Below are positions 4,028-20,074 of a stretch of 23,281 nucleotides of DNA, piece by piece; the first letter of the stretch is position 1, and the number at the start of each line of letters is the position of its first letter. Made by a program: the position numbers and the translations under genes. The stretch comes from Candidatus Abyssobacteria bacterium SURF_5 (GTDB taxonomy: Bacteria > Abyssobacteria > SURF-5): NCBI GenBank assembly GCA_003598085.1, contig QZKU01000094.1:1-23281 (forward strand). Reading direction: 5' to 3'. The notes under the pieces are model-generated. The model was not told the DNA's origin and searched no databases. It was given only the letters and a program-made list of their open reading frames with translations.

Positions 4028-4420
4028 TCAATCAAACATGGATACGCCGGTCGTAACCATCGGCTTTACAAGAAATCGCAGCGCAATTCGGCGGGAATAT
4101 CCTTCGTTCTGTTCTTGATCGAGCGGCTCCGACCGCACGATGACGGCAGGGGCATCGAGTTGGGCCGACGGGAAAGACGCATCGGGGCCAAGCGGGATGG
4201 CGATCGAGACGGCCACTTCGGCTCCCGGTGTGAATACGTCGGCCGAATCGAGGAGAAGACCATTGGCGGATACATTCTTCGTGCGAAAAAACCATTCGGG
4301 CGCATCGTCAGTATAATGGGTGCTCTTGAGCCGAACGGGATATACGGCGTCCCGGCGAGGCGCATGCCTTCTTTCTTGCCCGGCGCACGATTGTCTTATT
4401 TGAGCGCTACACTCCGACAC
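4028..4420 (-). CDS. PilZ domain protein (downstream of a tandem pair)
   Basis: This 130-residue single-domain protein is a likely c-di-GMP receptor. The two PilZ signatures are visible. An RxxxR motif (RHAPR) lies in the N-terminal arm, followed by a second motif NVSANGLLL, which fits [D/N]xSxxG. The rest is beta-rich, as expected of the PilZ barrel. The start is a GTG at 4420, directly after the TAA of the upstream PilZ gene. An AAGGAG site inside the end of that gene lies 9 bases before the GTG, which supports this start and translational coupling. No enzymatic domain is attached, so output would be through a partner protein. It converges with the sigma-54 activator gene across 194 bases with no clear terminator. 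Confidence 0.85.
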   Translation of the reverse strand: MSECSAQIRQSCAGQERRHAPRRDAVYPVRLKSTHYTDDAPEWFFRTKNVSANGLLLDSADVFTPGAEVAVSIAIPLGPDASFPSAQLDAPAVIVRSEPLDQEQNEGYSRRIALRFLVKPMVTTGVSMFD

Positions 4421-4795
4421 TTACCACAACTCCTTCTTGAGATGAGACAGAACCCTCATGTAGCGAAACCACTCGATCACCCCGACCTTGCGAATGGAGC
4501 ATCCCACCAATCGAGATGAGCCACTCCCTTCAACGGGAGCAACCCATCTCACGCGCGCCTGCAACTTGACGGGATGAAGGTAATTGCTTTTAAGTTCTAT
4601 TTCGACATCGCTGCCGGGGCTGAACTCGCAACAGGTCCGAATGCTCAGGCCGCGAATACTGATATCTTCCACTTTCGCTTGCTCTTCGATAAGAGTCGCT
4701 CCGCAAACGCGGGCCTCGAAAAATGGAGGGCAATGATACCTGTTAATGTCCCGATGAGTTCTTTTTGCTTCGGATTCCTTCATATGTGATGCCAT
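4421..4795 (-). CDS. PilZ domain protein (upstream of a tandem pair)
   Basis: This 124-residue protein is beta-rich and followed immediately by a second PilZ gene. It has RDINR (RxxxR) near residue 14 and DISIRGLSI near residue 43, the DxSxxG motif. Both halves of the c-di-GMP binding signature are therefore present. A later hydrophobic stretch ending in a basic and aromatic tail (WFRYMRVLSHLKKELW) could contact a partner. The two PilZ proteins are not near-identical copies, so they look like diverged paralogues rather than a fresh duplication. The start is uncertain: ATG at 4795 or the in-frame ATG at 4783, neither with a strong Shine-Dalgarno. Divergent from the zinc-ribbon gene at 4946. 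Confidence 0.8.
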   Translation of the reverse strand: MASHMKESEAKRTHRDINRYHCPPFFEARVCGATLIEEQAKVEDISIRGLSIRTCCEFSPGSDVEIELKSNYLHPVKLQARVRWVAPVEGSGSSRLVGCSIRKVGVIEWFRYMRVLSHLKKELW

Positions 4796-13782: not shown

Positions 13783-15531
13783 TTATACCTTGCTGAGAGC
13801 TTTGAAGAAAGTCAGGAAAATGATTTTGAGATCCAGCAGGAATGAGCATTCATCGACGTACTGCAGATCCAACTGAATCCAGTTATGGAAAAAATTAGTG
13901 CTCTTGCCTTTTATCTGCCACAGGCCGGTGAGACCTTGCTGGACCTTCAGGCGTACGTCGCGCCAATGGGGATTAAAGCGCATCTCGCTCATGGAGAGCG
14001 GGCGAGGGCCGACAACGCTCATGTGCCCCTGGAGCACGTTGAGAAGTTGGGGGAGCTCGTCCAGATTTGTCCTTCGGAGAAAGCGGCCGACCCGAGTTTC
14101 GCGGGGGTCGCCGTCGATCTTGAACATTGGTCCGTCGGACTGATTCAGGTTCTGAATCCTGGTTTTTATCTCTTCGGCCTCTTGGACCATAGTGCGGAAC
14201 TTGATCATTTTGAATGGCCTGGCATCTTTGCCGCAGCGAGTCTGCGCAAAGAAAACCGGCCCTCGCGAATCAAGTTTGATCGCTATGGCGATGAAGGTCC
14301 ACAGCGGTAATGTGAGGAGGAGCAGCGTGCCGGAGAAGGCCAGGTCCAGCGTTCTTTTCAGGATCGGGTACAGGCGCCCGTTCAGTTGCCTGGTCCAACT
14401 CGGTTTTTCCTTTATAACTTTGCGCACGGTCGTCCCGCCCAGGACGGCCCCAATGCCATCCAGGAACGGCTCTCCGTTCAGGATAATGCTTTCGCGGCAA
14501 TAGCCGGTGTCGAATCTTGCGGCCTTACCGCTGATCAGGCATTTGTCCACTTCAAAATCTGAAGGAAGCGAGCTATCGGCCCAGAGAACGCTTTCACGAA
14601 TGAAACTGTTCTTCTTCAATTGACAGCCCGGCCCGATAACCGACGGCCCTATGAGAGTAACGTTCTTATCAATGGAGGTATTCTCCCCGATAACCAGCGG
14701 GCGGATCAACGTCGCCGTCGGGTCAATGGACACATTTCTTCCCACCCAAATCTGACTCGTAATTTCCTGATAATCATCAAGGTGCTGCTTTGCTTGGGGT
14801 GTATCCCGCAGCAACTCAAAATTCATCCGCAAGTAATCGCCGATGGTTCTGATCCCGGCACAATTCTGCTTGTGTTTCCAACCTTCCACCTTCATTCCGC
14901 TCTTGCGCACTTTCGGAAGCAGCTGCTCCTTCATATCCATGAAGCCCGTCGGTTTGATATGTTCGAGCACCTGCGACTCGAGCACATAGATACCGGACGT
15001 TTCCATATTGGAGCGTCGATCCATCGAGAAGTGAAGCTGGACCACCTCTTCGATTTCGTTGTTCCCGTTCAGCAGTACGCGCTCGATCCCGGATTTCTTC
15101 TCTCCCTGAGTCACCAGTCCTACAGTCAGGTCCGCTCCCGAATGCTTGTGGTGCAAGATCATCTGCTGCAAGTCTTCGGGATGGAGGGAAATCAAACCGG
15201 CGGCAATCAAAACTATGGTATGGCCCGAAAGCTCCGGCTCGAGCGGTTTCAGGCAGCCGGCTGTTCCTCGCGGATGATCTTCCACCACCGTACGAACTTT
15301 CATTCCTTCCAGCGGCTCATTCGTCAGCGCGGACACAATCTCCTTGTCGCCAACGGTCAAGAAAACTTCCCTAATTCCCATCCGTTCCAGTGTCTCGAGC
15401 GTATACTGGTATGCCGGCTTATTCGCAATCGGAAAGAGCGCCTTCGGAACTTTTACTGGATCTATCGAACGACTATTCTTGCCGCCTATGGCTACTACTG
15501 CTTTCACATCCATATTCGATTCTGCTTCCAT
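13783..15531 (-). CDS. Fusion: degenerate nucleotidyltransferase, beta-helix, monotopic phosphoglycosyl transferase
   Basis: The 582-residue protein has three parts. Residues 8-245 are like sugar-1-phosphate nucleotidyltransferases ([11 protein letters not shown] at 29-39, GTAG at 89-92). Its signature loop reads GGKNSRS instead of GGxGTR. The metal-binding Asp motif is replaced by LIAAGLI at 108-114, and the late WxDxG motif by CAGIRTIGD, so it is probably not catalytic. Residues 262-375 contain hexapeptide repeats of a left-handed beta-helix. Residues 386-582 are a bacterial sugar transferase: a re-entrant membrane helix at 399-420, KFRTM, the catalytic Asp491-Glu492 in [10 protein letters not shown], and VVGPRP. 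This domain transfers a sugar phosphate to undecaprenyl phosphate at the inner membrane, starting a glycan. The start could also be the ATG at 15513. No glycosyltransferase or flippase gene is adjacent. Confidence 0.9.
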
Positions 15532-17955: not shown

Positions 17956-19392
17956 ATGATTCTTGAGGAGTTCCAGCCTATTTTCCACCCCCGTTCAATC
18001 GCAGTTATCGGCGCCTCAAACGATCCCACGAAATATGGCGGCCGGTACTTTTATGCGATGAGAGAGCGCAGTTATCAGGGTAAGCTGTATGCGGTCAATC
18101 CGAATGCAGCCGATATCGATGGCGAGAAGGTGTATGCGCGGGTGCAGGACGTTCCGGATGATATCGACTTTGCGATTGTCGCCGTCGCCGCGCCGCTGGT
18201 GGTGAAAGCCGTTGCCGACTGCGCCGAAAAACACGTGCGCGCGGTCCAGATTCTGACCGCCGGTTTCAGCGAAACCGGATCGGCTGAGGGAACCGAATGG
18301 GAGCGGCAGATGGCGCGCATCGCGCGCCAGAACGGCATGCGGATCATTGGGCCGAACTGTTTCGGCGTGTACAGTCCGGAAAGCGCACTCACACTTTTGC
18401 CGGGGCCGGACTTTCCGTCAGAGATCGGTCCGATCGGCGTTATCTCGCAGAGCGGCGGGTTCACTTCTTTTCTCATCCGAAAGGCAATGGGCCTGGGAAT
18501 TCGGTTCAGCAAAGTGATCAGTTATGGAAACGCGTGCGACCTGAACGAGGTGGATTTCCTTTCGTATCTCGAGGCCGACGACCGGACGAAGGCGGTGGTG
18601 GCCTATGTCGAGGGGGTGCGCGACGGCAAGCGGTTTCTCGATGCAGTCAAGAGGACCAGCCTCAAGAAGCCCGTCTGCATCTGGAAGGGCGGGCTGAGCG
18701 GGCTCGGCAGCCGAGCGGTCGCCAGCCACACGGCCTCGCTCGGCGGCAGCAAACAGATTTGGGACGGCTTCTTCAGACAGACCGGAGCAATTCCCGCCGT
18801 GGGCGTGGAGGAAGTACTCGATCTGATCGTCGGATTTACTCATATCCCGAATTTCTGTTCGAAAAGACTTTCGGTAGTCGGCGGCGGCGGCGCCATAACG
18901 GTGGCGGCCGCCGACGCGCTTGACCCGTATGGCATCTCGATGCTCGAGTTCCCGCCGGAGACGCAGCAAAGCATCCGCCGGTATCTCGCGCCAAGCGGCA
19001 ACAGCGTCAGAAATCCGGTGGACGTGGGCACGCCCGTCTTCCTGCCGTTCACGCTCAAGCCGATCCTCGAGATCATTGCGCGAAGCGAACTGGTCGACGC
19101 CGTCATCGTCGAACATTGGGTGACCAATTTCATGCCCTCCTTCGTGCAGGACCTGGCCGACGTGATCCCCTCAGTCCGCGACGCGAGCGGCAAACCGTTC
19201 GTCGTGAGTTTACCCGGCCCGTGCAGCTCGAGCGATACGATCGATATCGAGGAGACCCGCTGGAAATACCGGGAATGGTACCTGTCGCAGGGCGTCCCGG
19301 TCTTCGAAACGATCCAGCGCTCAGCAAAGGCTCTCGGAAAGATCCTGCAGTACAATGAATTCGTTCAAAGGCGGAAGGACCAACAAGCTTAG
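17956..19392 (+). CDS. Acyl-CoA synthetase (ADP-forming), alpha-type subunit, no ATP-grasp domain
   Basis: The protein has 478 residues. The start at 17956 has AAAAGGAGAG before it; a frame opening at 17884 would begin inside the spacer. Domain 1 is a CoA-binding Rossmann fold (SIAVIGASNDPTKYGG, then YAVNP). Domains 2 and 3 are succinyl-CoA ligase-like (IGPNCFGVYSP, GVISQSGG, and RAVASHTASLGG with His258). This His corresponds to the phosphorylated His of the alpha subunit in ADP-forming acetyl-CoA synthetases. The chain ends after the third domain, so the ATP-grasp beta domain of single-chain members (about 700 residues) is absent and no beta gene follows. The family reaction is acyl-CoA + ADP + Pi to acid + CoA + ATP, in either direction. 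A link to the deacylase is inferred from neighbourhood. Confidence 0.88.
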   Translation: MILEEFQPIFHPRSIAVIGASNDPTKYGGRYFYAMRERSYQGKLYAVNPNAADIDGEKVYARVQDVPDDIDFAIVAVAAPLVVKAVADCAEKHVRAVQILTAGFSETGSAEGTEWERQMARIARQNGMRIIGPNCFGVYSPESALTLLPGPDFPSEIGPIGVISQSGGFTSFLIRKAMGLGIRFSKVISYGNACDLNEVDFLSYLEADDRTKAVVAYVEGVRDGKRFLDAVKRTSLKKPVCIWKGGLSGLGSRAVASHTASLGGSKQIWDGFFRQTGAIPAVGVEEVLDLIVGFTHIPNFCSKRLSVVGGGGAITVAAADALDPYGISMLEFPPETQQSIRRYLAPSGNSVRNPVDVGTPVFLPFTLKPILEIIARSELVDAVIVEHWVTNFMPSFVQDLADVIPSVRDASGKPFVVSLPGPCSSSDTIDIEETRWKYREWYLSQGVPVFETIQRSAKALGKILQYNEFVQRRKDQQA

Positions 19393-19900
19393 GCGGCCAA
19401 GACGGCGGGAATCGGACGGGCCCTCCCACCGCTCGCATTCAGCGCGTCGATAGGTAAAGCAGCGACTCCGACTCATTTGGTGTTCGCGTACTGCTTCCCT
19501 CAGAAACAGTTCAAGCAGCATTTGCCGCATCTCCCCCGAACAGCCTCGTTCCAATTTAGTTTTCACGGATTCATCCTTTGTTGCTCGTGCTTTAGCCAAA
19601 ATCGATCTGGCCTAATCCTTTCAATTTTGCGGGGTGCGCGGCATAATGCTTGCACACGCGAACGCCGATTCGGATGGAAGTACTTATGGAAATTGTACTT
19701 ATGATCAGGATTGTGGAGGCGCTCCCATCTCCTGTTGAAAAAGAGAAAACAGACTCTGCGGAGAGCGACTCAGGAGTCCCTTTGTCAGTCATTGCGTGCC
19801 GGCGGAATCAATAAAAAAAGTTAGTTAATACTTGACAAGATATTATGCTATAGGATATAATCTTCGATAGCAAGGTCTACCGCTAGGGAGAGGAGGAGCC
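19393..19900. other. 508-base gap with no confident gene
   Basis: A minus-strand frame with a TTG start (19599-19321) overlaps the end of the ligase gene and looks spurious. A plus-strand ATG at 19646 opens only 30 codons, ending DSDGSTYGNCTYDQDCGGAPISC; it is Cys-containing but unsupported by a ribosome site. GTACTTATG occurs twice near 19680-19700. A GACTC/GAGTC mini-hairpin is at 19767-19778. The end holds the strong promoter of the Arg-rich gene. Confidence 0.5.
19832..19861 (+). promoter_or_regulatory. Sigma-70 promoter with both perfect hexamers
   Basis: TTGACA (19832-19837) and TATAAT (19856-19861) are both consensus, with an 18-base spacer. The start would be near 19868, 33 bases before the ATG of the Arg-rich gene. 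Confidence 0.8.
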
Positions 19901-20074
19901 ATGCAGGAGAGAAGGATAAGCGAACGGAGAAAAAAAGAACGCAGAACCGACATCCGAGCCGCTCGCAATCATGCGGGGATGCAGAGGCGAGTAGATGAAC
20001 GCAGACGCCGCGAGAGAAGGCAGGTTCGCGCAACTCGCAAACCGGTTACCCGTGAGAGAGCATCCAAGAATTGA
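19901..20074 (+). CDS. Arginine-rich microprotein with ERRxx pentad repeats (57 residues)
   Basis: This small gene has unusually strong expression signals: a perfect-hexamer promoter and GAGAGGAGGAG just before the ATG. The protein has 20 Arg and 4 Lys in 57 residues. It is built on a five-residue repeat: ERRIS, ERRKK and ERRTD at 3-17, two degenerate units, then QRRVD, ERRRR and ERRQV at 28-42, all in phase. Alternating Glu and Arg should give a highly charged single helix or disordered chain. It has no Cys, no hydrophobic core and no signal peptide, so a soluble nucleic-acid-binding, ribosome-binding or scaffold role is possible. Similar ERR/DRR runs occur as N-terminal tails of some deltaproteobacterial proteins, but here the tail is the whole protein. 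Function unknown. Confidence 0.75.
   Translation: MQERRISERRKKERRTDIRAARNHAGMQRRVDERRRRERRQVRATRKPVTRERASKN

Follow-up and report, generated by a model that had tools for sequence, protein, structure and literature searches.

A conserved arginine-rich small protein behind a consensus promoter in 'Ca. Abyssubacteria' SURF_5 points to a lineage-specific family with two ERR blocks

The window, i.e. the whole 23,281-nucleotide stretch of DNA that was analysed, belongs to the genome of 'Ca. Abyssubacteria' SURF_5 (G000; 5.10 Mb in 145 contigs, published as 5.1 Mb in 145 scaffolds; PMC6121073), a member of an uncultured candidate phylum of the deep subsurface. Among chromosomal housekeeping genes, it carries an ORF for an arginine-rich small protein (Table 1). 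The same-strand gene upstream, encoding a CoA-ligase alpha-like protein, ends at position 19392, with 440 bases between its stop codon and the promoter of the ORF, and the downstream gene, encoding a slipin (PF01145), is convergent. Thus, the arginine-rich gene is monocistronic and does not specify a leader peptide. The GC-rich hairpin after its stop codon was considered as a terminator, a role that is undemonstrated given its folding and the lack of a U run (Table 1). Elsewhere in the window, two adjacent PilZ-domain genes lie in tandem (4028-4795, minus strand), and a 582-aa protein (13783-15531, minus strand) joins NDP-sugar pyrophosphorylase-like (nucleotidyl transferase), left-handed beta-helix (LbH/hexapeptide) and bacterial sugar transferase (PF02397) parts in an unusual-looking fusion. 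A second perfect TTGACA/TATAAT pair (15976-15947, minus strand) lies ~410 bases upstream of this fused gene, whose long leader gave no match in Rfam.

The sequence-only reading had called both promoter hexamers perfect and the ribosome site excellent, and both calls were borne out: TTGACA (19832-19837) and TATAAT (19856-19861) agree with the consensus at every position across an 18-nt spacer (versus an optimum of 17), and the strongly pairing AGGAGG precedes the ATG by 4 nt. This was the sole promoter-like site found within 18.5-21.5 kb. A perfect promoter occurs 93 times in the SURF_5 genome, as against zero occurrences of a reversed-pattern control; the promoter of the arginine-rich gene looks real and strong, yet neither unique nor exceptional in its genome. 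Together with the Shine-Dalgarno sequence, it suggests an abundant product. Because perfect consensus sigma-70 promoters number 82-101 per genome in SURF_5 and two relatives (G001 and G002) and the reversed pattern is absent from all three, a pattern search can locate strong promoters in Abyssubacteria, along with small genes that follow them.

Table 1 Features at the arginine-rich small-protein locus (positions refer to the window)
Feature	Position	Strand	Evidence or remark
Sigma-70-type promoter, TTGACA-18-TATAAT	19832..19861	+	12/12 hexamer match; one of 93 perfect sites of the genome
Shine-Dalgarno AGGAGG within GGGAGAGGAGGAG	19891..19896	+	Sequence; anti-SD duplex -12.0 kcal/mol
57-aa arginine-rich small protein, 57 codons, ATG start	19901..20074	+	ORF; homologues; purifying selection; family core = residues 9-40
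N-terminal ERR block, residues 3-15, ERRISERRKKERR	19907..19945	+	Family shares the last two units only
Non-repeat centre, residues 16-27, TDIRAARNHAGM	19946..19981	+	Conserved; invariant D17, A21, G26, M27, plus I/V18
C-terminal ERR block, residues 28-40, QRRVDERRRRERR	19982..20020	+	Sequence comparison
GC-rich hairpin 3′ of the stop codon	20075..20145	+	Stability no greater than shuffles (z -0.23); no U run

A single-sequence search of 60 genomes had matches at one locus in G001 (E 6.6e-6) and at two loci in G002 (E 5.6e-5 and 0.005), the only other genomes of the family that were compared, making three Abyssubacteria genera in all. An independent alignment-based scan of GTDB contigs arrived at the same three homologue loci and no others, with SURF_17 among the relatives found. 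When the three genomes were searched with a profile, its own four members scored E 5e-25 to 3e-22 and nothing else fell below 0.02; weaker matches within SURF_5 itself (E 0.06 and above) were noise, lay within other genes or contained stop codons. Composition does not explain the homologue matches, since the query reversed, and so unchanged in composition, had a single match (E 0.23). All homologue frames are intact over 50-63 codons, with one or two copies per genome in 3/3 Abyssubacteria genomes, and the protein therefore withstood the check set by the sequence-only reading, which had named missing or frameshifted homologues as evidence against it. Upstream of the G001 homologue, a TTGACT-17-TATGAT promoter is followed by GGAGAGGAGGAAAT-ATG (read by eye), a Shine-Dalgarno sequence similar to that of SURF_5; both G002 copies have weaker promoters or none that is obvious.

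Over the 32-codon core, all six pairs of copies showed fewer non-synonymous than synonymous differences per site (pN 0.29-0.39, pS 0.62-0.99), and 7-12 of the 16-19 identical residues per pair were specified by different codons. This outcome of the codon substitution check that had been proposed from the sequence indicates purifying selection at the protein level, and we regard the ORF as almost certainly a real gene. That it might be spurious, with GC-rich intergenic DNA or an RNA gene misread as an arginine-rich low-complexity protein, would fit its lack of a database family and the intergenic DNA that follows it, in which no clear terminator is seen. However, this explanation is contradicted by the codon pattern—mainly synonymous differences in frames intact across three genera—as well as by the promoter and Shine-Dalgarno sequence, the near-empty reversed control and the absence of any Rfam match at the locus, and is highly improbable.

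As had been noted from the sequence, the 57-residue product is 42% Arg+Lys (20 R and 4 K; net charge +16). Six [E/Q]RR triplets, with first residues 3, 8, 13, 28, 33 and 38, keep a single phase of five, an arrangement seen in none of 20,000 same-composition shuffles, although the motif was picked post hoc; R-R pairs at lag 5 alone were mildly enriched (p 0.03). The phasing over about 40 residues claimed by the sequence-only reading therefore stands, but its description of the whole protein as a continuous pentad repeat does not: the triplets fall into two blocks set off by a 15-residue step, and the relatives likewise hold two short blocks of two to three ERR units each, on either side of a conserved centre of 12 residues without repeats, xD[IV]xxAxxxxGM. 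In G001, the ERR units start at 8 and 13, then at 28, 33 and 38; in the two G002 copies, at 13 and 18, then 33 and 38, and at 9 and 15, then 30 and 35. The phase thus slips by one residue in one homologue, and the 15-residue step is kept in 4/4 copies. By this comparison, the conserved feature is a pair of ERR blocks 12 residues apart rather than a protein-long repeat. Neither the first pentad (ERRIS) nor the C-terminal tail of the SURF_5 protein is conserved in the relatives. The common 32-residue core reads RRxxERRKD[IV]xSAxxYxGMQRRxxERR, and all four copies fit the pattern ERRxD[IV]x2Ax4GM[QE]RRx2[ED]RR, by which we define the Abyssubacterial ERR small-protein family; one G002 copy (on contig C26) carries G in place of D at core position 24 and retains its ERR. 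The RR dyads are conserved in every copy, and all four proteins are small and basic, with net charges from +7 to +16.

When 386 genomes were searched with the core profile at E<=0.02, no relatives were found in the 383 genomes outside the family. Eight matches beyond the family members reached this threshold, in line with the chance expectation of 383 x 0.02 = 7.7; the sole one below 0.001 (G021, E 6.5e-4) falls within a CRISPR array from a different phylum. Viral contigs, phages, plasmids and GTDB contigs from other lineages yielded no relatives either. None of the four members matched a Pfam or NCBIfam family at E<=1, PDB sequences gave no match to the arginine-rich protein, and PHROGs returned one insignificant match only. 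Within the scope of these searches, the family thus appears to be lineage-restricted.

AlphaFold predicted the SURF_5 protein to form a single helix (residues 2-46, mean pLDDT 82.8) and a G002 copy to do the same (helix 3-58, pLDDT 78.9), with a pTM of 0.45 for the helix models; these draw on only four sequences, and with so few a lone helix of high charge is readily over-predicted. In such a helix, the (E)RRxx period places R(i+1) four residues N-terminal to the next E and R(i+2) three residues N-terminal to it, making intrahelical salt bridges possible. The excess of i+3/i+4 salt-bridge pairs over shuffles was weak (p 0.04-0.20), and an amphipathic central helix found no support from the hydrophobic moment (p 0.39).

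The genomic places of the four copies mostly differ. Their sole shared context is that of the G001 copy and one G002 copy, which follow an AhpC/TSA peroxiredoxin gene and precede a gene for a PF13453 Zn-ribbon protein; a distant Zn-ribbon match in the SURF_5 genome is at another locus. The slipin/NfeD locus of both relatives holds no copy and no synteny. This lack of linkage to any constant partner gene fits a factor acting in trans, and combined with the RR dyads, the high net charge and the likely abundance, it fits a trans-acting binder of polyanions. By analogy with small DUF1127 proteins such as CcaF1 (PMC11707872) and with helices of the arginine-rich-motif kind, the product would most likely bind RNA or a different polyanion, and our leading if tentative reading is a trans-acting, helical small protein that binds structured RNA or ribosomes. 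The protein would form one long alpha helix, in the bound state if not before, and its two blocks, runs of (E/D/Q)RRxx, would each provide an arginine-rich motif holding on to the phosphate backbone of structured RNA, whether rRNA or mRNA. Register would be fixed by the Glu residues via i+3/i+4 salt bridges, the conserved centre, D-I/V-xx-A-xx-aromatic-x-G-M, might form a hinge or a self-association surface, and the protein would work as an RNA chaperone or a ribosome-associated factor.

Arginine-rich small proteins can, however, act via protein partners, which speaks against RNA binding. Indeed, pull-downs with the DUF1127 protein YjiS of Salmonella gave no evidence of transcript association (PMC11707872), and DUF1127 proteins of A. 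tumefaciens are reported to bind PhoR (PMC12501420), a precedent among arginine-rich small proteins for binding an acidic protein—a regulator, kinase or chaperone client—instead of nucleic acid. The conserved uncharged residues I/V18, A21, G26 and M27 likewise suggest a specific surface, but no partner gene, acidic or other, is constant across the four loci, and we consider this explanation unlikely. The charge of the four copies and their RR dyads would also suit a nonspecific binder of DNA or polyphosphate, i.e. a small nucleoid-associated or polyphosphate-condensing factor. Here, the constant block spacing and the conserved centre speak for something beyond bulk charge, and the gene context holds no pointer to either polymer, rendering this the less probable of the two. 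We therefore favour structured RNA or ribosomes over a protein partner, and the latter over DNA or polyphosphate. The guess of the sequence-only reading at a factor that binds RNA, ribosomes or polyphosphate is a reasonable candidate explanation.

Also weighed was whether the protein is ribosomal protein bS21 in diverged form, or a replacement for it. bS21 is likewise small, basic, arginine-rich and helical, and GDQRRLKDRK of the SURF_5 bS21 resembles GMQRRVDERR of the arginine-rich protein. Yet profile comparison (hhalign) gave a probability of 2.4%, Pfam and PDB sequences gave no match, and a separate bS21 above the Pfam cut-off is encoded in SURF_5 (contig C56), G001 and G002. Since all three genomes have their own bS21, a substitute role is ruled out, and kinship by divergence has a negligible chance of being correct. 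As a separate observation, G002 encodes two different bS21-like proteins (L083 and L085), and SURF_5 (L084) and G001 (L082), with one each above the cut-off, seem to retain a different one of these two types.

Taken as a new lineage-specific small-protein family, as the comparisons indicate it to be, the finding is modest but solid. A candidate phylum for which metagenomes are the only source gains a conserved small protein that had not been classified before, and the case illustrates how a genuine small gene absent from the family libraries searched here can be recovered from sequence alone. Whether by extension the family represents a new group of global RNA-binding proteins—restricted to this phylum, abundant, associated with RNA or ribosomes and with a new architecture of two arginine-rich blocks—is a more speculative proposal, and one we consider somewhat doubtful.

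Among known systems, PHROG 27189 (function unknown, 78 positions) was matched by one of the four members at a non-significant E of 0.039, probably driven by composition. Arginine-rich motif helices, e.g. the N peptides of lambdoid phages, are short, rich in arginine and contain RRxERR-type strings, and the SURF_5 protein, whose helix is predicted from only four sequences, would resemble them in this. It differs in combining two blocks with a conserved centre and in having no known boxB-like target. Membership among N-type antiterminators is not borne out, as viral contigs and phage records hold no homologue and the neighbours are housekeeping genes instead of phage genes. DUF1127/YjiS-like proteins such as CcaF1 of Rhodobacter sphaeroides and YjiS of Salmonella, for which roles in RNA binding and in phosphate and carbon metabolism have been reported (PMC11707872), resemble the arginine-rich protein in being ~50-60 aa long, rich in arginine and built of one small domain. 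The family core ERRKDIxSAxxYxGMQRR is different, however, and 0/4 members match the Pfam or NCBIfam models of DUF1127 at E<=1. If the protein is indeed an abundant RNA-binding protein, it would represent another independent origin of arginine-rich small RNA-binding proteins beside DUF1127. Our best reading is thus of a mode of action that may be akin to that of DUF1127 proteins or lambdoid N-type arginine-rich motifs, in a protein that belongs to neither group.
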